From a virus, in IMG/VR virus record IMGVR_UViG_3300036795_000052, positions 1-51,836 of that record: a DNA stretch of 51,836 nucleotides; one strand, given 5' to 3'. Numbering within the stretch: position 1 is the first letter of the stretch; each line of letters opens with the position of its first letter. Below are positions 910 to 49,798 of the stretch, in pieces. The notes under the pieces are model-generated. The model saw only the letters and a list, made by a program, of their open reading frames with translations. It made no database searches and had not been told where the DNA came from. The position numbers and the translations under genes were made by a program.

Positions 910-943
910 TGTTGCCTCCTTTTTGTGTGTTGATGCTATATTT

Positions 944-973
944 ATTATATAGCGTCTCAAGTGGGTTCATCAA
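944..973 (-). promoter_or_regulatory. Leftward promoter TTGATG-N18-TATAAT
   Basis: On the minus strand the -35 TTGATG (968-973) is 18 bases from the -10 TATAAT (944-949), preceded by TA as at most other promoters of this genome. It lies 35 bases before the start of the gene at 433-909. Confidence 0.75.
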
Positions 974-1667: not shown

Positions 1668-1807
1668 TACCGCAGCTCCTCCGGAATATGGAAGACATCC
1701 TGTCCCGCCAAGTTGGTTCCGACGCGGACGATTACGTCGGCATTGAGTAGTGCCTGGAAGAGACCTTCGATACACGCTCCGCACGTGCAGTAGTTCGAGT
1801 GCTCCAT
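1667..1807 (-). CDS. Small hypothetical protein, 46 aa
   Basis: A short gene beginning MEHSNYCTCGACIEGLF, with three Cys close together (CTCGAC) that could bind a metal. It is coupled by TAATG to the next gene. The upstream AAGGCGG could serve as ribosome-binding site. Support: the coupling, a protein-like composition and neat fit between flanking features. Confidence 0.55.
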   Translation of the reverse strand: MEHSNYCTCGACIEGLFQALLNADVIVRVGTNLAGQDVFHIPEELR

Positions 1808-1887
1808 TACTGTGCCGCCTTACACGAGATGCCAGCAGCCACGAGGAAGCGGGCTGCTCCAGTACCTACTATAGGTACTAGGCAAGA

Positions 1888-1907
1888 AAGGATCCTTTCG
1901 GATCCTT
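1888..1907 (-). terminator. Terminator hairpin after the 1921 gene
   Basis: An 8-bp stem AAGGATCC/GGATCCTT with loop TTTC lies 14 bases past the stop of the leftward gene at 1921. A smaller AGTACC/GGTACT stem sits at 1861-1879. The same arrangement follows its paralogue at 2524. Confidence 0.7.
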
Positions 1908-1920
1908 CCTCACCTGGCAC

Positions 1921-2253
1921 CTACATGTACTGCTCGGCCAGAGCCTCGATGTTGACGGTGCGGCCTGAGGCGACCTTGCCGGACACGTACGCGTCCAGCC
2001 ACGTCTTGAAGCTGTCGCCGTCGAAGTAGACCTTCTTGTCTCCTTCGACAGTCACAGTCGCGATGGGGCCGTTCGACTTCTTGGCGTACGAGTACATCAT
2101 CTGGGGGGTGACCTTCTTGTCGACACCCTTGACCTCGAGGACGCGATTGGCGAGCATCGCGGCGTAGTAGGGCGTGAGGGGCGAGCGCGGCGTGGTGTCG
2201 TTGGTGTCGTTGGTGTCGTTGGTGTTGGTGTTGGTGGTGTCGGTGCTGGCCAT
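1921..2253 (-). CDS. Small DNA-binding-like protein, paralogue A, 110 aa
   Basis: The N-terminus is a Thr/Asn/Asp repeat coded by a 9-base minisatellite (about 2200-2240). The core has PQMMYSYAKK, a basic turn, then TVTVEGDKKVYFD and a final helix FKTWLDAYV. The core is clearly paralogous to the 85-aa protein at 2524-2781 and more distantly to the C-terminal part of the protein at 48256-48720. The helix-turn-helix-like pattern suggests DNA or nucleoid binding, which is inference. The gene is monocistronic, with its own terminator and an upstream TATAAT at 2365-2370. Confidence 0.7.
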   Translation of the reverse strand: MASTDTTNTNTNDTNDTNDTTPRSPLTPYYAAMLANRVLEVKGVDKKVTPQMMYSYAKKSNGPIATVTVEGDKKVYFDGDSFKTWLDAYVSGKVASGRTVNIEALAEQYM

Positions 2254-2364
2254 TTTGGGCTCCTTGTTTTGGCGAGACTTGTAGATTGATAGATTGAGAG
2301 ATGAGTTTAGATTGTTTAGTTTTTGTTTAGTTTTTTGTTTAGTTTTTTATTTTGTTGTTATTTT

Positions 2365-2370
2365 ATTATA
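2365..2370 (-). promoter_or_regulatory. -10 element TATAAT upstream of 1921-2253
   Basis: Minus-strand TATAAT in an AT-rich leader. No good -35 is present at 17-18 bases, but a TTGGGCAA box (2415-2422, plus strand) like those near other early promoters lies upstream, so the promoter may need an activator. About 270 bases (2254-2523) separate the two genes; besides this element they hold poly-T tracts and the next terminator. Confidence 0.5.
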
Positions 2371-2487
2371 CTAGGGAACGAGGGGCAAATACTAGTGCTT
2401 TTGCTAGGAATGATTTGGGCAATTTTTTGTGCACCCATTCGGGCAGACTCCTTTCCTAGAACGTTTTCGTTCCTATAGGAACGGAAC

Positions 2488-2514
2488 GAGGAGGATTCTT
2501 TTCGAATCCTCCTC
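2488..2514 (-). terminator. Strong terminator hairpin after the 2524 gene
   Basis: Perfect 11-bp stem GAGGAGGATTC/GAATCCTCCTC with a 5-base loop, 10 bases past the stop of the leftward gene at 2524. A second small stem CGTTCC-tata-GGAACG follows at about 2468-2483. Confidence 0.8.
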
Positions 2515-2523
2515 ACTCTCTTC

Positions 2524-2781
2524 CTACATGAACTGCTTCGCTAGTTCATCGTAGTCTTGGCGCGCGTTGCCTGCTCCACCTTTCAAGTACTGGTCGAGCC
2601 ATGACTTGAATGCTTCGACGTCGAAGTAAACTTTCTTGTCTCCTTCGACCTTGACTGTATTGATGCGCCCTGATTTGGCGTATCCATACATCATCTGGGG
2701 CGTAATGGTACGATTGATTCCTTTCGCCTCGAGCACGCGATTTGTAACTTGCGCTGCTGCGTAAGGAGTAATTGTAGCCAT
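2524..2781 (-). CDS. Small DNA-binding-like protein, paralogue B, 85 aa
   Basis: Same core as the protein at 1921: ITPYAAAQVTNRVLEAKG, PQMMYGYAK, VKVEGDKKVYFD and FKSWLDQYL, without the Thr/Asn/Asp tail. The length suits a single compact DNA-binding domain. A 46-bp near-perfect palindrome lies 43 bases before the start codon, an arrangement expected of a self-controlled regulator. Its role is inferred from this layout, not from a recognised family. Confidence 0.7.
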   Translation of the reverse strand: MATITPYAAAQVTNRVLEAKGINRTITPQMMYGYAKSGRINTVKVEGDKKVYFDVEAFKSWLDQYLKGGAGNARQDYDELAKQFM

Positions 2782-2823
2782 GATGATCCCTCTCTTTGGT
2801 TTCCTAGCTCTTTACTAGGAGAC

Positions 2824-2869
2824 AATGAATATTGACTATAGTCTATATAGACTATTGTCTATATTCATT
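2824..2869. promoter_or_regulatory. 46-bp palindrome, candidate operator
   Basis: Left half 2824-2846 and right half 2847-2869 pair at 21 of 23 positions; the two mismatches are both T-T. The core contains TAGTCTATATAGACTA, and GTCTAT/ATAGAC hexamers recur. It overlaps the likely promoter of the gene at 2524-2781. A dimeric or tetrameric regulator site is the simplest reading; a replication-initiator site is an alternative. Confidence 0.75.
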
Positions 2870-2885
2870 ATCTTCTCTCAAAGAA

Positions 2886-3107
2886 CTAACTATTGCACGA
2901 GCACGATCCATTTGTACTCTTAGCTTCGAAGCATATCTCGCATATATTCTTCTTTGAGATATCGAAGCCACCTGAGAACTTCTGATCTGCTTGCTGATCT
3001 GCTAGATCAGAATTGAAAGCTTTCTTTCCTTCATAGATATGAACGAGATGTTGAGTCTTGTTGAATCTATGAGTAGTCTCATATTGACTCCTCTGAGAAT
3101 TGAGCAT
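2886..3107 (-). CDS. Small Cys-rich hypothetical protein, 73 aa
   Basis: Starts after a good AAGGAG site and is more AT-rich than most of the genome. The C-terminal CEICFEAKSTNGSCSC holds four Cys that could form a small zinc site. It is driven leftward from the promoter at 3208-3236 and diverges from the structural operon. Function unknown. Confidence 0.65.
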   Translation of the reverse strand: MLNSQRSQYETTHRFNKTQHLVHIYEGKKAFNSDLADQQADQKFSGGFDISKKNICEICFEAKSTNGSCSCNS

Positions 3108-3207
3108 TTTTTGTCTCCTTGATTTTTTAGAGAGTTTTAGAGAGAGGAGAGAAGAGTTTATTTAGTTAAGAAGAAACGATTTGAGATTTTTGTTTGTATC
3201 TAACTAT

Positions 3208-3236
3208 ATTATATAGTACAGAGTCAAAAATCTCAA
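3208..3236 (-). promoter_or_regulatory. Leftward promoter TTGAGA-N17-TATAAT
   Basis: Minus-strand -35 TTGAGA (3231-3236) and -10 TATAAT (3208-3213), 17 bases apart, about 100 bases ahead of the gene at 2886-3107. Confidence 0.75.
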
Positions 3237-3253
3237 GACCCTCGGGCTTAGAA

Positions 3254-3331
3254 GTTGCCCATGTAAATTAATTCCTACCATTTCACTAGGGATTTAGTGG
3301 TTGCCCAAGGAAAATTAATCCCTAGTGAAAT
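3254..3331. promoter_or_regulatory. Inverted and direct repeats between divergent promoters
   Basis: A perfect 15-bp inverted repeat (ATTTCACTAGGGATT at 3280-3294 and its complement at 3317-3331) overlaps two imperfect direct repeats of about 22 bases, each starting GTTGCCCA (3254 and 3300) and ending in an AATTAAT tract. It lies between the divergent early and late promoters, so it probably controls one or both. Confidence 0.65.
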
Positions 3332-3357
3332 AGGAGGTAACACATAGGTAAGAGACG

Positions 3358-3387
3358 TTGTGGAAAGCGCTTGACCTCATATATAAT
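3358..3387 (+). promoter_or_regulatory. Late operon promoter TTGTGG-N18-TATAAT
   Basis: -35 TTGTGG (3358-3363), -10 TATAAT (3382-3387). The upstream block AAGAGACGTTGTG (3350-3362) recurs exactly before the capsid operon at 10348-10360 with the same spacing to TATAAT. The expected transcription start (about 3394) falls on the first ATG of the next gene, predicting a leaderless mRNA. Confidence 0.85.
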
Positions 3388-3394
3388 AGATTAC

Positions 3395-3688
3395 ATGGCG
3401 CGCGAAGAAGACCCTATGGCAGGCATTGAGAAGGACCTCTTCGGTGAAGAGACCAGCTCTCAGCGGACCAAGAGAATGTTCGACACTAATGGACCGTTTG
3501 CAGCTGCGCAAATCATAGATTTGGCAGCGAACAGCGCGAGTGACTCGATCAGGTTGAGAGCATCGCAGTATGTGGTAGATCGCGTGCTTGGACCGACGGG
3601 GAAAGAGAGTCAGGAAGACGTGCTCAACGAGTTCCTCGAAGGTATTTCCAAACTCGCAGGCCAAAGTGCCGAAGGCGAGCCCAAGTAG
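3395..3688 (+). CDS. Probable terminase small subunit
   Basis: First gene of the rightward operon, 97 aa from the ATG at 3395; a second ATG at 3416 has a GAAGAAG site. The segment AAQIIDLAANSASDSIRLRASQYVVDRVLG matches the helical pattern of small terminase or terminase-associated proteins of actinobacterial phages. Position directly before the large terminase supports a role in recognising packaging sites. The assignment rests on context and pattern rather than a clear motif. The start at 3395 would be leaderless given the promoter position. Confidence 0.5.
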   Translation: MAREEDPMAGIEKDLFGEETSSQRTKRMFDTNGPFAAAQIIDLAANSASDSIRLRASQYVVDRVLGPTGKESQEDVLNEFLEGISKLAGQSAEGEPK

Positions 3689-3742: not shown

Positions 3743-5254
3743 ATGGTCGACAAGTTGAGTCAGGCATTCTGGGATTCGGTAGGATATAAGCCGCACCCTA
3801 GGCAAATGGAGTACCATACAAGCTCAGCACGATTCCGGGTTCCCTGTTGCGGGAGACGGTTCGGGAAAAGCACTATGGCCGCTCGGGACGTGACGCCCAG
3901 GTATCTTCTGCAGCCGAACAAGATGGTGTGGATTGTAGGGCCCACGTACGACCTTGCGGAGAAGGAATTCCGGGTTATCTGGAACGACTTGATTGTGACG
4001 AAGCAGCTTGGAAAGGACAAGCGTGTCCGCAAAGCGTACGCAAAACGGGCCGGGGATATGTTCATACAGTTCCCGTGGGGAACAAGAGTGGAATGCCGCT
4101 CTGCTGAGCATCCTGAGTATCTTGTTGGTGAGGCTTTGGATCACGTCATCATGTCCGAGGCTGCTAAGCACAAGCGTGAGACCTGGGAGCGTTACGTACG
4201 ACCAGCTCTTGCTGACCGCCGCGGCGGCGCAGACTTCCCGACTACTCCGGAGGGCTTCAACTGGTTGCATGACCTCTGGCAGCTTGGCCGTCGTGACAAG
4301 TTCAAGGGTATATACCAGAGCTGGAGATTCCCTAGCTGGGAGAACAGCTCTGTATACCCAGGCGGCCGCCTCGACGATGAGATTTCGCTACTAGAGGATA
4401 CTTCCGAGCCGGAATGGTTCCAGCAGGAGATCGGAGCTGACTTCGCCAGCTTCGTCGGCAAGATTTTTCCGGCGTGGGATGAGACGCGGCATGTGCTAAC
4501 AGGCGACTACAAGTTCATTCCAGCATGGCCGAACTACATCGCCTTTGACTGGGGCTTCACGAACCCACTTGCGGCTGTCGAGTTTCAAATTTCGCCACAA
4601 GATGAAGTCTATGTCTGGCGTGTGCACTACAAGAAGTACAAGACCATTCCGGACCATGTCGAGATACTGCTGTCCAGAGACCAACCAGCGAACTACCATA
4701 TCGACCTCACTTTCGGAGACCCCGCCGACCCTGCGGCCGCTGTGCAAGTTGCTCAGGAATTTGGGAAGCGTGGCTACCACGTCCAGTGCTGGGCGCCGCC
4801 GGAACTTAAGGCGGAATTCACGTGGCGAGATGGCATTGACCTTATGTCATCGTTTATGCGGCCGCGACAGGTTGGAGAAGATAGGTGGGGCGCTCCGATT
4901 GAGGAGCCGCGTTACTGGGTTGCCTGGGAGTGCAAGGAGCATATCAAGGAACTCAACAACTACCGTTCCAAGGAGCCGGTAAAGGGCCAGAACGTTCCTG
5001 AGCTTGGCAACAGAGTCGAGGACCATACGATCGACGCAATGCGATATGCACTCCTCTGTCTTTTCAAACTCGGCGCCGCAAATTCGCATTTGCACCAATC
5101 CATGGCTTCCGCTGCCCCTGTGGAGCTTTCTCCGAGGGCCGCGTCACTTCGACAAGCCGCTCGAGAACAACATGCCTTCGCTGACATGATGGGGCCAACT
5201 GGTGCCGCTGGCTTCTTCAGCCTTAGTTCGGCTGACAACGAGGTGGTCTTTTGA
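3743..5254 (+). CDS. Terminase large subunit
   Basis: Packaging motor ATPase and nuclease, 503 aa, about the usual length. Walker A GRRFGKST (residues 37-44), Walker B-like HVIMSEA (134-140, with SE where DE is usual), and RNase H-fold nuclease carboxylates at FDWGF (D269), TFGDPAD (D326) and EDHTIDAMRY (D431). It pumps DNA into proheads through the portal encoded downstream and cuts concatemers. A CCCTGTGG octamer precedes it at 3704 and another lies inside at 5116. Confidence 0.95.
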   Translation: MVDKLSQAFWDSVGYKPHPRQMEYHTSSARFRVPCCGRRFGKSTMAARDVTPRYLLQPNKMVWIVGPTYDLAEKEFRVIWNDLIVTKQLGKDKRVRKAYAKRAGDMFIQFPWGTRVECRSAEHPEYLVGEALDHVIMSEAAKHKRETWERYVRPALADRRGGADFPTTPEGFNWLHDLWQLGRRDKFKGIYQSWRFPSWENSSVYPGGRLDDEISLLEDTSEPEWFQQEIGADFASFVGKIFPAWDETRHVLTGDYKFIPAWPNYIAFDWGFTNPLAAVEFQISPQDEVYVWRVHYKKYKTIPDHVEILLSRDQPANYHIDLTFGDPADPAAAVQVAQEFGKRGYHVQCWAPPELKAEFTWRDGIDLMSSFMRPRQVGEDRWGAPIEEPRYWVAWECKEHIKELNNYRSKEPVKGQNVPELGNRVEDHTIDAMRYALLCLFKLGAANSHLHQSMASAAPVELSPRAASLRQAAREQHAFADMMGPTGAAGFFSLSSADNEVVF

Positions 5255-5409
5255 GCGTCCGGAGCAATAGCAATAATGACTGGCACTGGGCTTGGAGTTG
5301 GAACCCTAACCATATTTATATGCGTGGTTGGGGTCTTGTCCTTATACTCATTGCTGGTGCAATACTGGTAGGTTTTATGTTGTGGGGAGGACGTCATAAA
5401 GGACTTTAG
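5251..5409 (+). CDS. Small Trp-rich single-pass membrane protein, 52 aa
   Basis: A TTG start overlaps the terminase stop and is preceded by GAGGTGG at suitable spacing. The product has a Trp-rich N-terminus (DWHWAWSW), then one hydrophobic helix (GLVLILIAGAILVGFMLW) and a short basic tail (GRHKGL). It fills most of the gap between terminase and portal. Function unknown; holin-like or anti-host membrane roles are possible. Supported by ribosome-binding site, overlap and a classic membrane profile. Confidence 0.6.
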   Translation: MSVRSNSNNDWHWAWSWNPNHIYMRGWGLVLILIAGAILVGFMLWGGRHKGL

Positions 5410-5437
5410 AGACCTGCCTCGTGCCGACCTACAAGGG

Positions 5438-7333
5438 TTGATTGACGGAGGCTACGAGCCGGTCATTGCTCATGAGGGCCCCGATGCTTTCATTGTCATG
5501 GCACCTCCGGGCGGCGTGCATGAGCAAATGCTCGACGGAACGGCAAGCACCCAGTACGCGCAAGATGAACTTCCTGGTATGCAGCTGTCTTCTTCCATTA
5601 TGAGGCGCAAGACTGGTGTGCAGCGTAGAGGGAGACCGCAGCCTGGTGGAGCTCTACAGCCAGAGTTTCCAGGCGCGCAGACGAGTCCTGGAACTATCGA
5701 CCCCTATGGCGAGGGTCAAGACGGACTACAGTTTCCCCAGAAGCCGGATCAGAAACTAGGCTTCGGAGCGAACTCAGGAGAAGTACGTGCGCATCCACGA
5801 GTTGACCTTGCTCAGGGTCGTGGTGTTGGTCTTGGTGCTCCTGTTGGCGGCATTGGCAACGAGTTGGGCTCTGCTGTACCATCCCCATTCACCTCGTGGG
5901 TGCGTCGGGAATACAACCGTGACCTTTACGGGATCAAGGGCCTGCGGATATATGATCGGATGCGCAAGTCCGACGGTACAGTCCGGGGGACGATGCGTCT
6001 TGCCAAGACGCCTGTTCTAGCTGGCCAGTGGTCCATGAAGCCAGCCTCTCAGTCGAAACAGGATCAGAAGATAGCCAGCTTCGTCTGGAAGAATCTGACG
6101 CGCTGGACGACTACAAGCTGGCCGCAGACTCTGACTGAAGCGCTCCTGATGCTCGACTTCGGTTACTACATGTTCGAGAAGGTCTTCGCTCCAGGGGAAC
6201 AGATTACTAATGATCCTGAGGCTCGAGATAAGATCGTCTGGCAAAAGTTGGCCCCTCGACATCCCATGGACGTCAAGGAGTGGTTCTTCGACTACGAAGG
6301 TGGACCTCTATCGGTTGACCTATGGGCGCCACCAGTGTACGTTCCTGGTCTACAGGGAGGCGTCTTCCAGGGTTTCGAACAGTGGGTCAATATCCCGATC
6401 AACAAGCTTCTGGTCTTTTCCTTTGACAAGGAAGCTGGCAATATCGAGGGTATCTCCCTACTGCGTAGTGCGTATAAGCACTGGTACTACAAGGACAACC
6501 TTTACAAGATAGATGCGATCCAGAAGGAGCGTCATGGCATCGGTGTTCCGGTCATTCAACTGCCAGTCGGTTATAGTCCGCAGGATCTTTCTCTCGCTGA
6601 TAGTCTGGGGCGTAATCTGCGTACTAATGATCGCGCCCATGTGGTTCTTCCACCCAACTGGACCCTAACGTTTGCAGAGCTGAAGGGTCAGCCGGTCGAC
6701 TGCATCGCCTCGATCAATCACCACGATACGCAGATCGAGAAGCAGATCCTCGGCCAGTTCATTAACTCGTACACGAAGACTGACGAGCAAGATCAAACCT
6801 TGTTCCTGAAGGCGACAAGGTTCACAGCCGACATCGTGACGGACGCGATTAACTCGTACGCCATACCTCAGCTCGTCGACATGAACTGGGCGGGTATGGA
6901 ACCTCCTCAGCTCGTCGTGAAGCGAATTGGTGAACAGGAAGACTGGCGTACAGCCAGCTTCACTATCAGGAACTATGTAGGGGCCGGCGTCATTGTTCCT
7001 GACCAGCCTCTCGAGGACGCGATCCGAGACGAACTCGGACTGCCACCTTCGGACCCAGCAACCTCTCGTCTCGTCCGTTCGACGGAGAACCGGAACGTTG
7101 CACAGCCTGCTCCTGGCGAGCTTCCAGGCAGCCCAGAAGACATTGCGGCAGCGCTCAAGAGTGGCCAGATAACTCCGGAACAGCTTCAGCAAATGCAAAA
7201 TGCGCCTCAGTCTCCGGCAGGGCAACAGCAAGGAGCACAGCCAGGCGCTCCACGACAGGCAGCGCCTGGTACGACTGCACCATCCACAGGCAAGGGCGAT
7301 AGCTCAGGCAATGCGGGAAGAAGGGGTCAGTAA
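5438..7333 (+). CDS. Portal protein, DUF935 (Mu gp29-like)
   Basis: The dodecameric ring at the DNA entry vertex. The core is of the Mu-type DUF935 family: GLRIYDRMRKSDGTVRGTM, then the long helical stem region and LGQFINSYTKTDEQDQ. The C-terminus is a Pro/Gln-rich tail of low complexity. The start is uncertain: TTG at 5438 has a poor site, while the open frame upstream reads DFRDLPRADLQGLIDGG and a strong GGGGAGG precedes an ATA codon at 5396, so translation may begin there. It ends coupled (TAATG) to the next gene. Confidence 0.9.
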   Translation: MIDGGYEPVIAHEGPDAFIVMAPPGGVHEQMLDGTASTQYAQDELPGMQLSSSIMRRKTGVQRRGRPQPGGALQPEFPGAQTSPGTIDPYGEGQDGLQFPQKPDQKLGFGANSGEVRAHPRVDLAQGRGVGLGAPVGGIGNELGSAVPSPFTSWVRREYNRDLYGIKGLRIYDRMRKSDGTVRGTMRLAKTPVLAGQWSMKPASQSKQDQKIASFVWKNLTRWTTTSWPQTLTEALLMLDFGYYMFEKVFAPGEQITNDPEARDKIVWQKLAPRHPMDVKEWFFDYEGGPLSVDLWAPPVYVPGLQGGVFQGFEQWVNIPINKLLVFSFDKEAGNIEGISLLRSAYKHWYYKDNLYKIDAIQKERHGIGVPVIQLPVGYSPQDLSLADSLGRNLRTNDRAHVVLPPNWTLTFAELKGQPVDCIASINHHDTQIEKQILGQFINSYTKTDEQDQTLFLKATRFTADIVTDAINSYAIPQLVDMNWAGMEPPQLVVKRIGEQEDWRTASFTIRNYVGAGVIVPDQPLEDAIRDELGLPPSDPATSRLVRSTENRNVAQPAPGELPGSPEDIAAALKSGQITPEQLQQMQNAPQSPAGQQQGAQPGAPRQAAPGTTAPSTGKGDSSGNAGRRGQ

Positions 7334-27456: not shown

Positions 27457-29823
27457 CTAGAGCTCACCCCAGTTGGAACCGACGGTGATATCTACGTCGA
27501 ACTTGACGTAGTCACCGACTACCTTCTTCGCCGCCGCAATCATGTAGTGACGAAGAAGCTCTTTGACTTGGTCCACCTTGTTCTTGGGGCACTCGATGAG
27601 GATCGAGTCGTGGACCAAGTTACGTACCCACCCAATGCCTTTCAGGTGAGGACGCAAGTCACAGAACGCATCGAGGCAAATGTCCGATGCAGTTGATTGA
27701 GGCATGAAGGCCAAAGCCTCATTCATGATCTCGTGCTTGTTCTCCTCGGCGATCAACCAGAAGCGTCGATGCCTTCCGAACGGCGTTATGAGATCTTCTC
27801 CGGCGTTGACCTTTGCCTTTATGTCTTCCCTGAACTTGACAATGTTCGGGATGACTTCGAAGAACGCGCGCATACCTCGAGCTGCTTCCGCAACGGGAAT
27901 CTTGAACTCGTCGGCGATGCTCTGCGCTTCTCGTCCATAGCCTAGTCCGTATACATAAGCCTTGACACGAATTCGAAGCTCCTTGAGAGCTGCCTTATCA
28001 AGTCCTCCCATGTTTCCATAGAGTCGAGGGGCAAGTTCATCGAAAATATCGCGACTGGGATCGTTGAATATTTCCTGAAAATATTCCTCGCGGGCAAACC
28101 AGGTGAGGATCCGAAGTTCAGCTTGCTTGAAGTCAGCCTGTACGAAGACATTTTCAAGTCGAACAGGTACGAACTGCTTACGAAGGACTTCTCCTCGGGT
28201 GATGTTTTGAAGGTTAGGATTGCGAGAAGATAGTCTGCCCGTTTCGGTCCCATGAAGAAGAAAGGTCGAGAACACACGACCTTGATAGACGCGTTTACGA
28301 ATACCTCGGACGTAAGTTCCGTCACTTTTGGCATCCTTTCGGTGGAGCTGCAACGTTTCTAGGAAATCCCTCTGCGGCCCCTGTGGTGCTCTTTCCAGAA
28401 GGAGGTTCAGCGCGTCGTTGTCCGTTGTAGGTCGCATCTCTCCTTTCTGGTTTCGTTTCAGAGGCACTCGGAAGCCTAGCTCGTCTAGAGCCTCGACTAG
28501 CTGCTTAGGCGAGCGAGGATTGACTTCACGACCTAGGATATCGGCTAGCTCTTGTTCGAACTGCTTTAGCCTAGCCGCGTAATGAATGTGCAACTCGTCG
28601 TTGTATTGTAGATCGACACCAAACCCGTTGAGCTCGACGTACATGAGTTCGTTGGATGCCCGAACGAGGAAATCATGAAGACGACGAAGGCCAGGTTCTT
28701 CATCCAGAAGACGATCGAAGAGCAGATAGAGCTCGTACGTCGCAGCACAGTCGTACGCGTTATACCTGTAGAGGATTTCACGAGGTATAGATCCGTACCC
28801 TTTACCAGCTCGTACATACTGTTTGATCTCGTCATCGTATCGAGGTGTCCCTAGTCGTTCCACTGCCATGTATTTGAGTCCGTGGATTCCGGGCCGCTCG
28901 TCAAGACAGTAGCTGGCGAGCATTGTGTCGAACCAGAGACGAATGTCTCGCATTCCTTTGGCATGAAGCCCTGCAAGATCGAACTTGCCATTCTGAGCAA
29001 TGACTCGACGGTGTTCCTTGAGATAGCGTCCAAGTCCGGTGCGGACAGCATTGTCCTGTAGGGCAGTCTCACCGAACACAGCGACCTTGCCCCTGTCGTA
29101 TCCGACACCCACACAGAGTAGACCGTGTCGAGTTGGGTGGTCGAATGAAACGTCTTTATCGATATCTGATTCGATGTCCACTGTGATTGGACGTGAGAGG
29201 GCTGTGAGTTCCACCAGTCCTGCAAGAGCTTCTCTAGGTTGTTCGAAGACGACGTGTTCTGGTTCTTTCCATTCACTAGTAAGCCCCTTGAGCTTGGCGA
29301 AGTCATTTACGATCGACGGGAAGTAGGCGTCACCTTTCGGACGGAGACATGCGGCTGGGTGGAACGTTGGAATGACTGAAAATGGAACTCCTTCGACCTC
29401 TTTCGGCGGTCCGACGCGTAGGCGCGTGATGCCATCCTTAGTTCCCAAGATCGATTTCGTGGCAGAGTTACCCAGAGCCACCACTTGCTTGATCCTGGTA
29501 CTTTCCAACTCCGACATGAGACGGGGCCTACATGCAGCCACCGCGACCGCGCTTGGGGTTGCGTTATCTGGTGGTCGACAAGAACAGGAGTTGGAAAGTA
29601 GCGTTTCTCCACGATCGATGTGGTAGTATTGGAGTACTCGATCAAGGAGCTTACCCGAGACGCCAGAGAAAGGAATGCCAAGGCGTGCTTCATTTCTCCC
29701 AGGCGCTTCTCCAACGATCGCGATGCCATTGCTGTGCGTTGGGATAGCTGACGGGACGTACCGACCACTTTCATACAGATCACACTTCTCGCAGATTGCT
29801 AGAGGGTGTTTACGTTCAGTCAC
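27457..29823 (-). CDS. Uracil-DNA glycosylase / DNA polymerase I fusion
   Basis: 788 aa from a GTG overlapping the upstream stop. Residues 1-180 are a family 4 UDG: Cys at 11, 14, 80/82 and 98 for a 4Fe-4S cluster, GEAPG (38-42) and HPAACLR (155-161). A 3'-5' exonuclease follows (VDIES, D216 and E218; QNGKFD; YDCAATY), then a family A polymerase: motif A QADFKQAELRI (D564), motif B RVKAYVYGLGYG and motif C VHDSI (D739, with S where E is common). Replicative polymerase; the UDG part could recognise uracil in template or host DNA. Confidence 0.93.
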   Translation of the reverse strand: MTERKHPLAICEKCDLYESGRYVPSAIPTHSNGIAIVGEAPGRNEARLGIPFSGVSGKLLDRVLQYYHIDRGETLLSNSCSCRPPDNATPSAVAVAACRPRLMSELESTRIKQVVALGNSATKSILGTKDGITRLRVGPPKEVEGVPFSVIPTFHPAACLRPKGDAYFPSIVNDFAKLKGLTSEWKEPEHVVFEQPREALAGLVELTALSRPITVDIESDIDKDVSFDHPTRHGLLCVGVGYDRGKVAVFGETALQDNAVRTGLGRYLKEHRRVIAQNGKFDLAGLHAKGMRDIRLWFDTMLASYCLDERPGIHGLKYMAVERLGTPRYDDEIKQYVRAGKGYGSIPREILYRYNAYDCAATYELYLLFDRLLDEEPGLRRLHDFLVRASNELMYVELNGFGVDLQYNDELHIHYAARLKQFEQELADILGREVNPRSPKQLVEALDELGFRVPLKRNQKGEMRPTTDNDALNLLLERAPQGPQRDFLETLQLHRKDAKSDGTYVRGIRKRVYQGRVFSTFLLHGTETGRLSSRNPNLQNITRGEVLRKQFVPVRLENVFVQADFKQAELRILTWFAREEYFQEIFNDPSRDIFDELAPRLYGNMGGLDKAALKELRIRVKAYVYGLGYGREAQSIADEFKIPVAEAARGMRAFFEVIPNIVKFREDIKAKVNAGEDLITPFGRHRRFWLIAEENKHEIMNEALAFMPQSTASDICLDAFCDLRPHLKGIGWVRNLVHDSILIECPKNKVDQVKELLRHYMIAAAKKVVGDYVKFDVDITVGSNWGEL

Positions 29824-31624: not shown

Positions 31625-31880
31625 ATGCTGCCTCCGGATGATGTCCTAGTGCTGCGAATACGTTCATGATGTAGATGAGGCAGTCGGTTGCCTCATCAAC
31701 CATCTCCGCTTGAAGGTCCATACGCTTGTGCGTACCGCGTTCGACCTTCTTGACGAGGTTGGCTAGTTCGCCTACTTCGCCAGCCAGTGCAAGAACTTGA
31801 AAGGGTAGGTCAGTTGCGGTTTCAGGAAACCACTCCTTACTATCCTCCGAACACTGGATATATAGGTCGTCTAGGTTCAT
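31521..31880 (-). CDS. MazG-like nucleotide pyrophosphohydrolase
   Basis: 119 aa. The MazG pattern is clear: ALAGEVGELANLVKKVERG and EMVDEATDCLIYIMNVFAALG, with the metal-binding Glu and Asp residues, and the KRHRNRRRFG end. It hydrolyses (d)NTPs to monophosphates and may cleanse the pool of modified or alarmone nucleotides. Encoded beside folE. Confidence 0.8.
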   Translation of the reverse strand: MNLDDLYIQCSEDSKEWFPETATDLPFQVLALAGEVGELANLVKKVERGTHKRMDLQAEMVDEATDCLIYIMNVFAALGHHPEAAYERKRHRNRRRFGPTGSTSGGGRDIHPRVQFTPK

Positions 31881-32473
31881 CTGATACTCTCCATGAATTC
31901 TGCTTTCGCAGTTCGGTCGTGGTCTGAGAACACTCCTAGCATAGATGCGGTTCGCGTCATTGCTCGAAGCGCCTTTGCTCCACGAATTGACATACAGGTG
32001 TGATGTGCTTCCATCACGACAGCGACACCGAGCGGGTTGAGGAGCACCATCATGTGTTGAGCAATTCGTTCGGTGAGCTCTTCCTGAGTGTTAAGAGCTC
32101 GACAGTGCTGCTCGACTAGCCTCGGAATCTTACTCAGGCCCACGACCTTACCATCTGGAATGTAGCCGACGTGCGCTACGCCTATGAACGGAAGAACATG
32201 ATGTTCGCATAGCGTTGCGAAGTCGATGTCCTTAACGACTACCATGTTCTGGACATCTGATTCGAAGGTCGTGAACTTAAACACTTCAGGCGTCGTTAGC
32301 TGCTTCAGAGCTTCGACAAAACGCCTTGGTGTAGCACCCTGGTCGGGAAGCTGCGTATTGAGAGTAGCTACGCGTCGGAGAAGGATCTCGGCAAGCTCTT
32401 CGTCTTCGAACTGACTGCCCGATTCAAATTCCACGCTTTTGAGCTCCGTACACGTAGTTATGGACCTGAACAT
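31877..32473 (-). CDS. folE: GTP cyclohydrolase I
   Basis: 198 aa. First step of preQ0 synthesis from GTP. Zinc and active-site motifs are CEHHVLPFIGVAHVGYIP, GLSKIPRLVE and EAHHTCMSIRGA. It overlaps queE by 50 bases; the four genes folE-queE-queD-queC are contiguous, which shows that the 7-deazaguanine branch and not folate is the purpose. Confidence 0.93.
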   Translation of the reverse strand: MFRSITTCTELKSVEFESGSQFEDEELAEILLRRVATLNTQLPDQGATPRRFVEALKQLTTPEVFKFTTFESDVQNMVVVKDIDFATLCEHHVLPFIGVAHVGYIPDGKVVGLSKIPRLVEQHCRALNTQEELTERIAQHMMVLLNPLGVAVVMEAHHTCMSIRGAKALRAMTRTASMLGVFSDHDRTAKAEFMESIR

Positions 32474-33113
32474 TGAGCCGCCAAGGAAGATGGTAACCCT
32501 TGACGAACTCTAGGATCTGGGGTTCGAAGTTCTTACCCCAGACGGACCCGACATAGATCTCGATGATCGTTTCCTTGAGATACTGTATCCAGAGTAGTCG
32601 GGCTACTTCCAAGTCCCTGAGATCCGACACGACGAACTTGATTGCGTTCCCGAACATGTCGATGCTATCGATGTTCGCGATACGCGTCTTGTGATACGGA
32701 TCTTCTTGCGAACTAGGAAGCTTCCAGTCCATTACGAATGTAGCGTCCAGACCGAAGATTGGACGCGTACCGTTCGTGAAGACCTCGAAGCCGAGTACAG
32801 GAATTGCTAGACGACACAGACTAAGCAGATCTTCGAGATCATCATGATTTTGGAGCAGAGGCTCGCCGCCCGTGATGCATACGTTCCTCGCCCCTGTGGA
32901 GTGTGCTTCTTTGATGATGCGCTCGGACAGGTTTCTTGGTGTGATTTCGACTTGCTCTTCGCGATAGAGCTTCGGCTTTACTGCATACGGCGTATCGCAA
33001 GGCCAGCCCGGACAGCGAAGGTTACATCCGGCGAACCGGACGAACTGAGTGAGCATACCAACTCGAGGACCTTCTCCCTGAGTTGAAATGTAATGTTCGA
33101 GTAGCCTAAGCAT
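32424..33113 (-). CDS. queE: 7-carboxy-7-deazaguanine synthase (radical SAM)
   Basis: ATG at 33113 with GGAG six bases upstream; 229 aa. Radical SAM cluster segment GCNLRCPGWPCDTPYA: the spacing is C-x3-C-x4-C, where most members have C-x3-C-x2-C. CITGGEPLLQ follows. Converts 6-carboxytetrahydropterin to 7-carboxy-7-deazaguanine. Confidence 0.9.
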   Translation of the reverse strand: MLRLLEHYISTQGEGPRVGMLTQFVRFAGCNLRCPGWPCDTPYAVKPKLYREEQVEITPRNLSERIIKEAHSTGARNVCITGGEPLLQNHDDLEDLLSLCRLAIPVLGFEVFTNGTRPIFGLDATFVMDWKLPSSQEDPYHKTRIANIDSIDMFGNAIKFVVSDLRDLEVARLLWIQYLKETIIEIYVGSVWGKNFEPQILEFVKGYHLPWRLNVQVHNYVYGAQKRGI

Positions 33114-33552
33114 TGCTACTCCAGGTTGCACAGTTGACGGAAGTTTCCCAGACCGTGACGTTCGTGAGTGGACAGGCGAAGAAGCCTTTTGCCCAGCTGC
33201 CTATCTCCGTGGCGAAGTTCTCCGTTGTAGGATCTCCATTAAAGACTGCGCGTCCTGGTAGGGCTAGCTTCTCGACGTTACCGTCTACGTCGTAGACGTA
33301 ACCGATCACTTGCGACCAAGGGTCGCGTGCGTTTAGGAGTACACGATGGTCGTACTGCGTATCGAGCCACTTGCGGAAGTGCTTCTTGATCATTCCGAAG
33401 TCAAGAGTTTCTAGGAGTCCGTGATTGTCGACTTCACCACCGAGTTCGAGTTCGACCCACCAGCTGTGTCCGTGAATGTTCTGACACTTGCCTGGTGTCT
33501 CATAGAGACGATGAGCCATCTCGACGTTGTGCTTGACCTTGATAGTCTGCAT
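33106..33552 (-). CDS. queD: 6-carboxytetrahydropterin synthase
   Basis: ATG at 33552, coupled by TAATG to queC; 148 aa. Zinc histidines in MAHRL and NIHGHSW, catalytic Cys in KCQNIHGH, YDHRVLL, and PTTENFATEI with VWET. Second step of preQ0 synthesis. Confidence 0.93.
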   Translation of the reverse strand: MQTIKVKHNVEMAHRLYETPGKCQNIHGHSWWVELELGGEVDNHGLLETLDFGMIKKHFRKWLDTQYDHRVLLNARDPWSQVIGYVYDVDGNVEKLALPGRAVFNGDPTTENFATEIGSWAKGFFACPLTNVTVWETSVNCATWSSNA

Positions 33553-34256
33553 TACTTGATTACCGTCTTCCAGAAAAGATAGTCCTCGTAGATCGTGTCG
33601 TCTTCGACACCCGCTTCGTCGATAGCTTCGAGACGCTCGACGCAGGTTCCGCACTTGCCGCAGTGGAACATTCCACCTTTGTAACACGACCAGGTCTTGT
33701 CGATCGGAACTCCGTGCATCTCTGCGTCGCTGGCGATATCGGCCTTAGTCTCGTAGATGTAAGGCGCGAAAATCTTGAAGTGGTCAGGAAGGAAATCTTC
33801 GTTACCAACCCTGATTGCGTGTTCGAGACTTCCGAGGAAGTCTGGCCTGCAGTCAGGATAGATCTCGTGGTCGCCGGCGTGCACAGCCGTTGCGACGAAC
33901 TCGTCGTACCCGGAGGCAATAGCAGTGCTGGTTGCGATCGAGAGCATGACCATGTTACGATTCGGAACGACCGTCTGCTTCATGTTGTCTTCGGCGTAGT
34001 GACCTTCCGGAACCTCGATGACAGGATTCGTGAGGCTTGAACCGCTACTTTTCAGGATGTCAGCCCAGTCGTTAAGCTTGACGACGTTGTGCGTGACGTT
34101 GAGCATACGACTGACCGTCGCTGCTGCATCGAGCTCCTTCTTGTGTCGCTGTCCGTAGTCGAACGACAGAGCGAGAACGTCGTGACCTTCGTGCACGAGC
34201 TTGTACAGCAGCGTCGTGCTGTCGAGTCCACCAGAAAGAATTACGATACCCTTCAT
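33552..34256 (-). CDS. queC: 7-cyano-7-deazaguanine (preQ0) synthase
   Basis: 234 aa from the second of two ATG codons, which is better spaced from AGGAG. PP-loop ILSGGLDSTTL, DYGQRHKKE, VVPNRNMVML and zinc cysteines CYKGG/HCGKCGTCVER. Makes preQ0, the last free base before insertion. No queF is seen, so the pathway should stop at preQ0. Confidence 0.95.
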   Translation of the reverse strand: MKGIVILSGGLDSTTLLYKLVHEGHDVLALSFDYGQRHKKELDAAATVSRMLNVTHNVVKLNDWADILKSSGSSLTNPVIEVPEGHYAEDNMKQTVVPNRNMVMLSIATSTAIASGYDEFVATAVHAGDHEIYPDCRPDFLGSLEHAIRVGNEDFLPDHFKIFAPYIYETKADIASDAEMHGVPIDKTWSCYKGGMFHCGKCGTCVERLEAIDEAGVEDDTIYEDYLFWKTVIK

Positions 34257-36415
34257 CATGTCTCCTGAAGTAGTGTGTTGTACGATATACCTCGACCCTC
34301 GCCACCCTTAGTGATGAGACCTCGGTTGACGAGAGTGTTCTCGATCTCAGACATTTCCTTCGCGGTTAGATGGTATGTCTGCATGACTCGAGAACGTGTC
34401 ATTGTCTGCTTCTTCTGGATCGCGTTCAGGACGAGCGTGATCTTGTGTTCTGCCTCAGACCTGCCAACGTTGAGTACAATCTCCTGAGCATACCTCCGCC
34501 ATTGATCTCCGAATGAGGCTGCCTTGAGTATGTCATACTCTGTGACTTCGACCGGTCCTTCTTCGGTTCTAGCTGCAGCCAAGAGCATCGCACACTTGAG
34601 CATGCTGGCAGCGAGCCGTGCATTGGTGGGGACAACAACATCGGCCATCTCTCCTGCATCTAGACCTATCTGCGATAGTGTCTGGTCGAGAATATTGTAC
34701 CGATGCCAAGCGTCTTGAGACATCCTGATCTCTTGCGCCTGACGCGTCATGCCAACTACTTTGCCATTGACACTCACAGGCATGTTATTGCTATGCCTTT
34801 GGCTGATGTCTCGAAGCTCGGCGAGTATCCGATCGCGGCCCTCGATGTTGAGCGCCACAGGGGGTCCCAAAGGTTTGACCCTGGAAATGTCACTCTCGGC
34901 TGTGATGATGACGAACCTTGGTAGGAAGCCCGACTCGACATGTTCGAACGAAAGGATCCGAGTCATCTTGGACTTGATACCTCCGCCGAAGATAATCAGC
35001 CGAGGATCTCGAACGATGATCTCTTCTTTCCGCAGTAGACGCTTTTGAGTTTTGCCATCGTAGATCTTGGCGAAGAACTCTGGCATACCTGCCATGTAGT
35101 CCTTCTTGTGCATCTGGTCTACTAGGCCTGTAAACTCGTCTCGTAGGAAGACAGACGGTTGTCCTGATCGGGCGGATAGTGCTGTCGTGAGACCTTCGAG
35201 TGATCCGTCCGTTGCCATGAGGATACTCTCATCGACCTCCATAATTAGGTCCATCGCCAAGTCCATGGCTGTCGACTTTCTCGTCAGGGTCGTATCCGCT
35301 AGGAGTAGAAACCAGATGTTCGGCTGAACTGTCCCGAAGGATGTCGGCAGCTTGATAGACCCAGCTAGTACCGACGACAAAGCTACGAACGCTCCTGCTA
35401 CGTGATACTGCGGTGCTGCGTCCCCAACTGTCTTGGCCCACTCGATATACCTGTCTACGAAGGTTGGTGGAAGTTCCTTGATCAGGGTTTTTTCTGAATC
35501 CGACAGAAGTGAGATCTCTCCTGACGGAGGCATGGAAGACTGTTTACGGTTAGTATCGAACCTGGCTCTTGCGCGGCAGATATCTTTCCATAGACGTATG
35601 TCTTCATCAAACTTGTTACATGAAGCGTCTCTGCATACTTGAAACGTTTCTGCCATGGAAAGCAACGCTTCAAAGCAGTACATTTCCAGACGGAATAGGA
35701 GCGCACTGCGATCAGCGCCCTCTGCTAGCTCCCTGTGGAAAAGTGTGAACGCGGCACCGTTTATCTTGTGTCGAACATCTTCTAGAACCTCTTGACCAGT
35801 TCGAACTGTTAGGTCCGGGAAAGGAATATCGAGGTACTCGTACCCTTCGACTTGAGGGTACATATAGAAGTCATCGACACTGTAGATGAGTTCTGGATCC
35901 CAGACGAGTACTTGGACGTACGGTGGCTCTGCATCGCCATACTTAAAGTTCCGTGTTCCCGGTACTCTCAGGAGTTGGGTGAGGTCCCATCCCGATCGGT
36001 CGCTTCCTTCCTGTGCGTGTCCGTAAGCGATTCGTCGTGAGATGGCTTCTGCTGTCTCGGCATCGACAGGCTTGTCAAGAGTCCATATTGCTTGATAGCG
36101 GCCTGGGCTTGTCTCGAGCGATATCGACGGTTGCACATGTAGATTATCAGGGTGACAATCGTCCAGGTCAGACCAAACACACTGCACCAGACCAACATGT
36201 TTCTTGTCTCGTTTCTTTTCCGTAAGTAGCTGCGGACAGAAGTAGACGTTTTCTACCATGGTTTTCGACCTGACGAGCTCGGCAACGTCGCCAAAGTCTT
36301 CTGGGAACTTAAAGAATCGTTCTTGAAACTGACCACTCTTCTTTCTGGAAGCGATACACATGTATCCCTCTGTATCGCCGTATGCTGACAGGAAGAAGCC
36401 TTTCAAGCCAGGCAT
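34256..36415 (-). CDS. Primase-helicase (AEP-like primase + DUF3987)
   Basis: 719 aa. The N-terminal part has the archaeo-eukaryotic primase carboxylate motif CVWSDLDDCHP and SPGRYQAIWTL; the middle is a DUF3987-type P-loop ATPase (LADTTLTRKSTAMDLAMDL, then FLRDEFTGL as Walker B). The end is a winged-helix-like segment (MTRSRVMQTYHLTAKEMSEIENTL). Likely the replisome primase-helicase. Confidence 0.8.
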   Translation of the reverse strand: MPGLKGFFLSAYGDTEGYMCIASRKKSGQFQERFFKFPEDFGDVAELVRSKTMVENVYFCPQLLTEKKRDKKHVGLVQCVWSDLDDCHPDNLHVQPSISLETSPGRYQAIWTLDKPVDAETAEAISRRIAYGHAQEGSDRSGWDLTQLLRVPGTRNFKYGDAEPPYVQVLVWDPELIYSVDDFYMYPQVEGYEYLDIPFPDLTVRTGQEVLEDVRHKINGAAFTLFHRELAEGADRSALLFRLEMYCFEALLSMAETFQVCRDASCNKFDEDIRLWKDICRARARFDTNRKQSSMPPSGEISLLSDSEKTLIKELPPTFVDRYIEWAKTVGDAAPQYHVAGAFVALSSVLAGSIKLPTSFGTVQPNIWFLLLADTTLTRKSTAMDLAMDLIMEVDESILMATDGSLEGLTTALSARSGQPSVFLRDEFTGLVDQMHKKDYMAGMPEFFAKIYDGKTQKRLLRKEEIIVRDPRLIIFGGGIKSKMTRILSFEHVESGFLPRFVIITAESDISRVKPLGPPVALNIEGRDRILAELRDISQRHSNNMPVSVNGKVVGMTRQAQEIRMSQDAWHRYNILDQTLSQIGLDAGEMADVVVPTNARLAASMLKCAMLLAAARTEEGPVEVTEYDILKAASFGDQWRRYAQEIVLNVGRSEAEHKITLVLNAIQKKQTMTRSRVMQTYHLTAKEMSEIENTLVNRGLITKGGEGRGISYNTLLQET

Positions 36416-46879: not shown

Positions 46880-47154
46880 ACCTGCTCCAGAATGACACTG
46901 GTAAGAGCTGCCTCGATGTTATCAGACTCGGTGTCGTTCCACGAGATGATACCGAGGCCCTCTTCCGAGGCATGGAAGTCGACGAACGTCTTCGCCTCGT
47001 CGACGTCCTTGAACTGGAGAAGGACAGTTCCGGGCTCGAGCTTCTTGGTGGACAAGGCTCTGAATCCGAGGTTCGCGATTTCGAGAAATGTCTCACCGAC
47101 AAGGCTGAGGCCTTCGAGGTCGGCCTCGTCGGAGATTTCGACGATAAACTTCAT
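46876..47154 (-). CDS. Hypothetical protein, 92 aa
   Basis: MKFIVEISDEADLEG; contains VLLQFKDVDEAKTFVDFH, reminiscent of the TFRDEAAAERF unit at 40185/40624. Overlaps neighbours by four bases. Confidence 0.6.
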   Translation of the reverse strand: MKFIVEISDEADLEGLSLVGETFLEIANLGFRALSTKKLEPGTVLLQFKDVDEAKTFVDFHASEEGLGIISWNDTESDNIEAALTSVILEQV

Positions 47155-47564
47155 GATGCTTTCTCCGATTCTAGAACCTCGACCTTTGCTTCGAGGATGT
47201 TGACACGATTCACGAGGACGCTAACAACGTCCATCGTCTGGCCGAGCTTGGTGTTGGTCTTGCGCCGCTTCTCTTCGAAGCTAGCGAAGTCGTCCCAGTT
47301 GGGCTCGCGAACGATTTCCCAACGACTAGGAGAGCTTCCTCCTCCTCGAGCGATCTGCCTCACGCAGTGCATCGCCTTCAGTCGCTTCAGGACTTCGGTG
47401 TAGTAAGGCGTCGCCAACCTTAGCTCCTGGAAGAGCTGAGTGATGAAGCCTTCGTACACCAACGCGGAACGGCCTTCTATCTTTCCGGGTTCAGAAACCT
47501 TCTTCATGGCCTCGTAAACCGTTGAGCAGTGCTCAAACAAACGCGGCGGGGCGTCTTCACTCAA
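47151..47564 (-). CDS. Putative winged-helix protein, 137 aa
   Basis: ALVYEGFITQLFQELRLATPYYTEVLKRLKAMHCVRQIARGGGSSPSRWEIV reads as a winged-helix domain with a wing (RGGGSSPSRW); a coiled coil closes the protein. Possible transcription factor of the early operon. Confidence 0.65.
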   Translation of the reverse strand: MSEDAPPRLFEHCSTVYEAMKKVSEPGKIEGRSALVYEGFITQLFQELRLATPYYTEVLKRLKAMHCVRQIARGGGSSPSRWEIVREPNWDDFASFEEKRRKTNTKLGQTMDVVSVLVNRVNILEAKVEVLESEKAS

Positions 47565-47745
47565 GGGAATCCCTCACCTTCTTCAAAACTAGAAGCATCT
47601 CATCCGAGAAGGATGTATGTTCAAGGAGCTCTTCCCAGCTGCCGAATGGCTCCTTGCTCAGTTGCTTCTTTGCGTCTTCCCAAGCATCGAGGTCGATGTC
47701 AAGGTTGTCACGTAGAAGCTCCTTCTCATGTTCCGTTAGATCCAT
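47557..47745 (-). CDS. Acidic hypothetical protein, 62 aa
   Basis: MDLTEHEKELLRDNLDIDLDAWEDAKKQL: small helical acidic protein. It is the first gene after the long structured non-coding region, suggesting it is translated from an RNA processed or terminated there. Confidence 0.6.
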   Translation of the reverse strand: MDLTEHEKELLRDNLDIDLDAWEDAKKQLSKEPFGSWEELLEHTSFSDEMLLVLKKVRDSLE

Positions 47746-47872
47746 GTATTACTCTCTTGTCATGTAAAACTAGGCGCCGAATTCAACCCCTGGCAGGGAG
47801 TTCGTGACGACGCCTAGCCCCAGACTGCCATCCGGTTGTAGCTATCTCAGGTGTTAGGTCTGAGTGCTACCG

Positions 47873-47953
47873 TACGACGTCCGGATTTGAACCGGAACCT
47901 CTCTAAGTCCGGGGGCCCAGATTAGAGTGTTCTGCTTAAACTACGTCGCCGTA
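47873..47953 (-). ncRNA. tRNA-like element with abnormal anticodon arm
   Basis: Minus strand, 81 nt. 7-bp acceptor (TACGGCG with CGTCGTA, one G-U), 5-bp T stem with loop TTCAAAT, 4-bp D stem (GTTT/GAAC) without the GG of D loops, and a 6-bp stem CTCTAA/TTAGAG that encloses 15 nt instead of 7; these can extend it to about 11 bp with a GCCC loop. No anticodon with U33 can be assigned and CCA is not encoded. A decoding tRNA is unlikely; a processing signal or tRNA mimic is more plausible. Confidence 0.55.
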
Positions 47954-48220
47954 CCCGACCCCATCGCGGGTACGTTGGAGGAACCACCTGCCGTCCGACG
48001 GGAGTGGCAGCGTTCGACAAGTGGTTCCGCTTAAGGAGAAGGACGTTAGCGTGTTCCCTACCTACTGACGAACAGCGCTGGCACTTTTAGACCTGTGTGT
48101 GGCCAGGTATGCCCTACGACTTACGTTGCACTAGTCTCAGGAGCTTCTTACGTCCTTCTCCGTCAACGGGCCGAGCGCCTTCCTCTCAGGAGCTGGGGAC
48201 TCCTACGCTCGGCCCTGGTA

Positions 48221-48248
48221 GACGGTAGAGGCTTGACCCTCTACCGTC
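48221..48248 (-). terminator. Hairpin after the 48256 gene
   Basis: Perfect 11-bp stem GACGGTAGAGG/CCTCTACCGTC, loop of 6, eight bases past the stop of the leftward gene at 48256. It may terminate, or form the first helix of the structured RNA region. No U tract follows. Confidence 0.6.
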
Positions 48249-48255
48249 CTGCGGA

Positions 48256-48720
48256 TTACTCCGCCTCTTCGAACTCGGCTTCCTGAGCCTCGTCCTCGTC
48301 GTCGCTCTCGTCCTCGACGACAGCTTCGCCCTCGGGCTCAGCCTCTTCCGACTTCTTGGTCTTCTTGACCGCTGACCGCGTACTCCGGTCGACGTACCAC
48401 TGCACGGCCTCTTCGAGGTCAGGAAGCCCCGGACGCGTGATGCCGTCGTACTCCTCGGCGGTGGGCTGCGTCTCGTAGACGTTGCCATCCTCGTCGTACC
48501 ACTTCACGGGGAAGCGGCCTTCGCCCTTGCCCGGCGACTTGACGTAGGCGTACATCTGCTGCGGCTTGAGAGTGTCCGGTGCGATCTCTTCTGCAACCAG
48601 GTGGTTGCGAAGCTGGATCGGCGTGACGACGCCCTTCGGGAGCGGGAAGCGCGCCGACTTCGGCTTGACCGGTGCGGCCTTCTCTTCCTGCTCTTCGACT
48701 TCAGTTGCGGTGTCAGACAT
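48256..48720 (-). CDS. DNA-binding-like protein, long paralogue, 154 aa
   Basis: ATG at 48720 behind GAGGAGACAAA. Central region VTPIQLRNHLVAEEI, LKPQQMYAYVK, RFPVKWYDEDGNVYE and LEEAVQWYVD aligns with the core of the short proteins at 1921 and 2524 (PQMMYGYAK, VKVEGDKKVYFD, FKSWLDQYL). A very acidic C-terminal tail (EDESDDEDEAQ) is added. All three are monocistronic with own promoters, as expected for abundant nucleoid or regulatory proteins. Confidence 0.7.
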   Translation of the reverse strand: MSDTATEVEEQEEKAAPVKPKSARFPLPKGVVTPIQLRNHLVAEEIAPDTLKPQQMYAYVKSPGKGEGRFPVKWYDEDGNVYETQPTAEEYDGITRPGLPDLEEAVQWYVDRSTRSAVKKTKKSEEAEPEGEAVVEDESDDEDEAQEAEFEEAE

Positions 48721-48788: not shown

Positions 48789-48818
48789 ATTATATATGGG
48801 CACACATGGGAACCGCAA
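48789..48818 (-). promoter_or_regulatory. Leftward promoter TTGCGG-N18-TATAAT
   Basis: -35 at 48813-48818, -10 at 48789-48794 (minus strand). Upstream lies a TTGGGAAA box (48838-48845), and TATGGGCACA near the -10 pairs with TGTGTCCATA at about 48855-48864, the same design as at 39189-39262. Confidence 0.85.
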
Positions 48819-48868
48819 GGGCTCTCCAAAGATTTCTTTGGGAAATTTTTTGTGTCCATATGAATACG

Positions 48869-49734: not shown

Positions 49735-49798
49735 CCTGTGGCTTCTCGTCAGGCACGCCCGCCACAACGTACGACGCCTCCCGGCGTTTCGAATCAGG
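49735..49798 (-). ncRNA. Type II hammerhead ribozyme HHR-3
   Basis: Minus strand order: stem II 5' side (CCUG-A-UUC), GAAA (49790-49787), stem III A-CGCC with GGGA loop, GUC (49775-49773), stem I GUACG/CGUGC, CUGACGA (49752-49746), stem II 3' side (GAA-GCCA-CAGG). Cleavage is expected between 49773 and 49772. Stem II needs an internal loop, so it is the weakest of the three, but all core bases are present. Lies between the genes at 49799 and 49726. Confidence 0.82.

Follow-up and report, generated by a model that had tools for sequence, protein, structure and literature searches.

To our knowledge, few large structured phage RNAs without an assigned function have been described. GOLLD forms a 14-mer nanocage and ROOL an octameric one. 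According to PMC12286853 both cages are built of RNA only, and in PMC7157519 the prophage origins of cluster A mycobacteriophages are presented as RNA-based, noncoding stretches of 400–500 nt in actinophages.

The DNA analysed here (the window) is an IMG/VR record of 51,836 bases from a tailed phage, with genes that include portal, capsid, tape-measure and terminase. Its terminase is closest to those of Arthrobacter, Microbacterium and Gordonia phages, at no more than 34% among the matches listed, and its 25-kb half at positions 25000–49999 has no near match in the collection of cultured phages searched. It also encodes, on the minus strand, a DNA polymerase A whose N-terminus carries a uracil-DNA-glycosylase domain (27457–29823) and QueC, a radical SAM protein and GTP cyclohydrolase I (31877–34259), the last three genes suggesting 7-deazaguanine modification of the DNA. 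Comparison with related phages makes it very likely that the region at 47770–48248 specifies a structured RNA under selection, and we favour, with a probability of roughly 0.6, a dedicated large structured noncoding RNA of ~480 nt that acts as such. It probably belongs to a new family of large viral RNAs in soil phages.

Results

Position and folding of the gap

The gap at 47746–48255 (510 nt) is the largest in the leftward gene block, the runner-up having 205 nt, which bears out the original prediction of a gene-free stretch in a tightly packed leftward operon. Its longest sense ORF has 32 codons and no ORF in it is conserved; a 145-codon open frame across the corresponding RNA of the relative L007 was rejected as coding because that of the window phage is so short. 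Of 107 tiles, each of 480 nt, on the minus strand (mean z −1.5, sd 1.65), the one at 47770–48249 ranked top with z −8.0, and the segment 47740–48260 gave z −8.4 on the leftward (minus) strand vs −3.2 on the plus strand. The limits first proposed, 47770 and 48248, fit the fold, 48248 being the start of the first 11-bp helix and 47770 the end of the last 7-bp arm. Its parts, all on the minus strand, are listed here from upstream to downstream with the neighbouring genes.

48789–48841 (−): probable promoter, read directly (TTGCGG 48818–48813, 18 nt, TATAAT 48794–48789)
48256–48720 (−): upstream gene, 154-aa protein, in all nine phages compared
47766–48248 (−): whole structured RNA, first helix through to the T run behind the last hairpin; fold z −8.4
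48221–48248 (−): 5' hairpin P1a, 11 bp, perfect, from the fold and helix count
48168–48215 (−): 5' hairpin P1b, 10-bp outer arm and inner GGAG/CTCC stem
48035–48161 (−): domain X, with the 12-bp helix GGAGAAGGACGT/ACGTCCTTCTCC as its closing stem
48111–48122 (−): 5' strand of the X core, AAGTCGTAGGGC, same letters in three phages
48076–48095 (−): 3' strand of the X core, CAGGTCTAAAAGTGCCAGCG, with an invariant CTAAAA bulge
47980–48030 (−): hairpin P3, with conserved 5' strand AAGCGGAACC common to the window phage and L007
47950–47974 (−): hairpin P4, 8 bp; L007 has a different sequence at the same place
47872–47950 (−): tRNA-like domain, Rfam RF00005, 33.7 bits (cut-off 29)
47838–47870 (−): hairpin P5, GTAGC..GCTAC, from the comparison with L007
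47825–47830 (−): linker TGGCAG, the complement of the loop CTGCCA; part of GGATGGCAGTCTGGGGCT, which L007 shares unchanged
47770–47817 (−): 3' hairpin P6, 12-bp outer stem, then TTTT; terminator-like
47557–47745 (−): downstream gene, 62 aa, conserved neighbour
47151–47564 (−): downstream gene, 137 aa, query for relatives

On the minus strand, eight perfect Watson–Crick helices of at least 7 bp form within 150 nt, compared with a mean of 3.5 (sd 1.8, maximum 10) in 500 dinucleotide shuffles, and three have at least 10 bp (shuffles: mean 0.06, maximum 2). The original count of at least seven stems of 7–12 bp is thus reached by perfect helices, but two of the eight 7-mers compete with other stems and only six can form at once. 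Likewise, the 12-bp pairing is real and spans 127 nt but encloses 103 nt, not 104, and the 11-mer repeat AGCTCCTGAGA is exact (copies at 48145 and 48194), yet an 11-mer repeat also turns up in 20 of the 500 shuffles, so that the repeat alone is weak evidence. A plain terminator was rejected, the region being too large and its core covarying.

A second cluster of strongly folded tiles (z −4.4 to −6.7) lies at 900–3400 (−) of the window. It contains small genes equipped with TATAAT boxes and hairpins of their own, a 428-nt folded gap (961–1388) and two paralogous small proteins in which TPQMMYSYAK resembles KPQQMYAYVK of the 154-aa protein.

Synteny, folding and covariation in relatives

Searches for relatives with the 154-aa and 137-aa proteins encoded nearby led to further contigs, and merging of near-identical contigs left nine distinct phages: the window phage (W) and eight relatives (L003, L006, L007, L014, L016, L017, L019 and L020). 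L002, L004, L005, L008–L013, L018 and L021, which are listed contigs or near-identical ones, were not recounted; near-identity was compared for L002/L003 and, over part of the locus, for L020/L021. Scans of viral contigs for exact T-arm, X-core and 3'-motif patterns added nothing but L015, rejected as a chance match. The phage collections searched yielded no relative: the matches of one search had chance E values, and those listed for another fell within the part of the 154-aa gene that encodes the acidic tail. The genome collections searched yielded none either, L022 being rejected as a spurious short match.

In all nine phages, the 154-aa gene is followed by the gap and then by the 62-aa and 137-aa genes. 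In seven of them (W, L003, L006, L007, L014, L017 and L020) the gap is 371–692 nt long, gene-free and folded, and in each of these seven long regions the sense strand is better folded relative to shuffles than the antisense strand (z −2.5 to −7.9 and −1.6 to −4.6, respectively), folding being modest in L020 (z −2.5). The gap of L019 has 97 nt and one hairpin only, and its antisense strand folds better. In L016, a 264-codon ORF (4701–5495) replaces the RNA below the same upstream gene, as if the RNA site held exchangeable cargo, and is followed by a folded stretch whose strands fold about equally. Across these genomes the RNA locus can be seen to change or be lost between phages.

W and L007 are ~61% identical in this region, align end to end and keep the complete domain order. 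An RNAalifold structure derived from these two sequences themselves has 117 pairs, 28 of which are changed on both sides yet remain paired, vs at most five in controls slid by 1–3 columns. A cleaner test uses the minimum free energy structure predicted from the W sequence on its own: of 31 pairs changed on both sides, 21 were kept in L007 (expected 0.45, P 0.01), and one-sided changes left 18 paired and 20 broken; on the opposite strand, 11 of 27 double changes were paired, and one-sided changes left 11 kept vs 37 broken. The reciprocal test, starting from the structure of L007, was weaker (17 of 30 kept, P 0.09). The same kind of covariation was at chance for L006–L003, L003–L014 and L017–L020, whose sequences align poorly, and hence speaks neither for nor against a shared fold.

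Short motifs recur more widely. Strands like GGGACAACGCTG, facing strands like CACTGGTGTCCC, are present in five of eight regions, as is a linker like CTACAACTGAAT, in both cases above shuffles, and in L006 domain X is nested inside a GGGACAACGCTG/CACTGGTGTCCC-like pair of the other subtype and so joins the two subtypes. One family uniting all seven long regions would be founded on synteny and short motifs, because covariation between distant pairs is at chance, X is absent from six of the nine phages and the folding of L020 is modest.

Domain X

The AAGTCGTAGGGC and TCTAAAAG strands of X are identical across W, L007 and L006 while the surrounding helices vary, and a GCA/TGC pairing in the 3' strand of the core becomes GCG/CGC in L006. 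Over these three phages, 15 of the 46 pairs in X are changed on both sides, a count reached by none of 500 shuffles and vs at most three in slid controls. Compensatory changes in homologues, the lack of which was to count against the original prediction, are found both here and in the W–L007 alignment. A covariance model of X built from W and L007 only, with L006 excluded (R1), identified L006 at 65.8 bits (E ~1e-11) in the same syntenic gap and at no other site in that record; in the other six of the nine records R1 did not detect X. Convincing matches to a second model, of the 3' part (R2), were confined to W and L007, with a weak partial match in L019 (E 0.02) ~6 kb off the locus and one of E 4 in L006. 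As far as genome comparison goes, fold and strand, syntenic position and covariation in two to three phages are established.

tRNA-like domain

The RF00005 match emerged only from a search confined to the region, having been missed by ARAGORN and by cmscan of the whole window. In W, its 7-bp acceptor (GCGACGT/ACGTCGT) and T arm (CCGGTTCAAATCCGG) are both intact. The D arm is short, with a D loop AAGCA that lacks GG (G18G19); the anticodon arm/loop has a large insertion and no 7-nt anticodon loop; and the acceptor is followed by ACGG, with no CCA. A translating tRNA gene was rejected on these grounds, and the domain is unlikely to serve translation because of the D loop without GG, the abnormal anticodon arm and the missing CCA. 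The equivalent in L007 scores 42.6 bits and is called tRNA-Gly by ARAGORN, and L006 has an acceptor/T-arm element with 20.6 bits (tRNA-Sec model), below the cut-off. A tRNA-like part is hence recognised in only three of the nine phages. The original prediction had linked such RNAs to neighbouring tRNAs: ARAGORN found no tRNA in the 51,836 bases, and hence no tRNA island, so that what survives of this link is the degenerate domain inside the RNA.

The placement of this domain, in the 3' part of the region in W and L007 vs the 5' end in L006, would suit a variable cargo site, in which small independent elements such as hairpins and a decayed tRNA gene lie side by side and do not make up one RNA. 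Order and content do vary by phage, the ORF of L016 and the L019 gap, empty except for its hairpin, being the extreme cases. We nevertheless consider a cargo site improbable, given that W and L007 retain the complete order at ~61% identity, that motifs common to the subtypes exceed shuffles, and that X in L006 sits within the G motif of the other subtype.

Flanking hairpins and a possible pseudoknot

At the 5' end, L007 has a single, different hairpin of 12–13 bp where W has P1a and P1b. Three of the 13 pairs of P3 are changed on both sides between the two phages, as are four of the 12 + 6 pairs of P6. The CTGCCA loop of P6 (47796–47791) and the TGGCAG linker are unchanged in W and L007 while the P6 stem changes by compensatory pairs. 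Loop and linker might form a pseudoknot, within one molecule or between molecules; their strands are invariant and hence offer no covariation test.

Neighbouring genes and expression

The 154-aa protein has no Pfam or PHROG match. Its AlphaFold model (mean pLDDT 71) shows a small core of helices and strands and an acidic tail of low confidence, and a PDB fold search with this model returned nothing below E 0.9. Upstream of its gene, a TATAAT lies ~18 nt from a CTTG-type box, with an A-rich stretch, in all six phages compared (W, L003, L006, L007, L014 and L017); promoter and terminator scans made no call at the probable promoter, whose −35 box is poor, or at P6. Just upstream of the probable promoter is a perfect 16-nt palindrome, CCAAAGAAATCTTTGG (48841–48826), also present in L017, which is likely an operator and whose plus strand also reads as terminator-like. 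From this arrangement we infer a single transcript comprising the 154-aa gene, the RNA and the terminator hairpin.

A type II hammerhead ribozyme (49736–49794, −; 38.3 bits against a cut-off of 37) is located between a 97-aa ORF and the gene that follows. The same family has one match over the cut-off in G001 and two in G003, and weaker ones in G002 and G003; these phages therefore carry hammerheads repeatedly.

The single transcript proposed for the 154-aa gene and the RNA could also be read as an mRNA with a long structured 3' UTR, whose hairpins protect the 3' end of the 154-aa message and terminate it while the RNA itself has no function. The region does follow the 154-aa gene and share its orientation, no separate promoter having been called for it, and the compared regions end in a hairpin ahead of the 62-aa gene, the one element that L019 retains. 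A UTR of this kind would have no need for an X core whose bulges and single strands are identical in three phages, or for a tRNA-like cloverleaf, and 480 nt is far above its requirement; we regard it as rather unlikely.

Discussion

Proposed mode of action

For a dedicated noncoding RNA, the preferred reading, transcription would start at the probable promoter upstream of the 154-aa gene, proceed leftward and stop at the 3' hairpin and T run. The predicted fold comprises variable 5' hairpins, a long helix around the conserved core X, the tRNA-like domain and the 3' hairpin, whose loop could pair with its linker. By analogy with GOLLD and ROOL, the product may be an abundant accessory RNA acting in trans, and the tRNA-like acceptor and T arm might expose it to cleavage or binding by host RNase P/Z or tRNA-binding proteins, any specific role for the tRNA mimic being a guess. 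A host-facing scaffold or decoy, not a housekeeping part, is suggested because the sequence changes fast and modularly around a few fixed motifs.

Comparison with known phage RNAs

Cluster A origins (Alma, RedRock) resemble the locus as noncoding RNAs of similar size in actinophages and, like the phages that carry them, the window has no integrase. They differ in lying beside parABS and in being required for lysogeny: neither a tyrosine or serine integrase nor a ParA-type ATPase (AAA_31) was found in the window record, so that a parABS neighbour is missing. R1 did not match the Alma and RedRock regions, which fold less extremely (z −2.7 and −3.5), and the detrended GC-skew minimum of the window is at ~2 kb, not 48 kb. 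An RNA-based replication origin of this prophage type, which the size range given in PMC7157519 would allow, is accordingly very improbable.

A gene-free stretch of ~400 nt with a degenerate tRNA is also carried by the Streptomyces phages Comrade, Karp, Belfort and relatives. In Comrade (117891–118295; L025 1187–1591) it is conserved, with the degenerate tRNA near its 3' end, and full or partial matches to it occur in 38 Streptomyces phage records, some of which annotate 'tRNA-OTHER'. Unlike the present RNA, it has no X and no 3' domain and matches in the T arm only (E 6), a resemblance that is likely convergent; it is possibly another tRNA-bearing phage RNA. A literature search, with most subscription journals outside its scope, gave no description of the RNA studied here.

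ROOL is phage-encoded, comparable in length (the RNA whose structure was solved has 659 nt), rich in stems and of a function not known, all of which recall this locus, but its model gives no match here. GOLLD, as portrayed in PMC12286853 and PMC6582537, is a large phage or prophage RNA with an internal tRNA or pseudo-tRNA in some cases, loop–linker pseudoknots and parts of unequal conservation; the internal tRNA-like trait is present here, in the RF00005 match at 47872–47950. Unlike GOLLD, the locus has no model match and no tRNA island and measures ~480 nt, many GOLLD RNAs exceeding 800 nt. Membership in either class, which had been raised at the outset, is not supported: at E up to 10, RF02032 (GOLLD, 416-position model) was found in none of seven records, in a search with no GOLLD-positive control genome, and RF03087 (ROOL, 574 positions) in none of the seven, its control genome being silent too; neither was listed when cmscan was run on the region with E up to 10. 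Similar size, phage origin and an embedded tRNA-like part as in GOLLD (PMC6582537, PMC12286853) would also suit a very diverged member of one of these classes, to which we give very little credence in view of these searches.

The alternative raised in the original prediction, a new class of large phage RNA, is supported by the compensatory changes, the shared syntenic site and the finding of a third phage by R1. More tentatively, and as a possibility that we would not call probable, it could stand with GOLLD and ROOL as a third class of large ornate RNA in phages, one in which outer domains are swapped around a fixed core and a tRNA mimic is built in. If so, it might self-assemble via its complementary loop and linker, or be bait for host tRNA-targeting enzymes or defences. 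Were it a separate family with its own core, tRNA mimic and module swapping, such RNAs would be commoner than thought, and the size of the 127-nt core would suit probing and cryo-EM. Our best reading of the compared sequences is a fast-evolving, modular RNA that would be like GOLLD and ROOL in kind, not in sequence.
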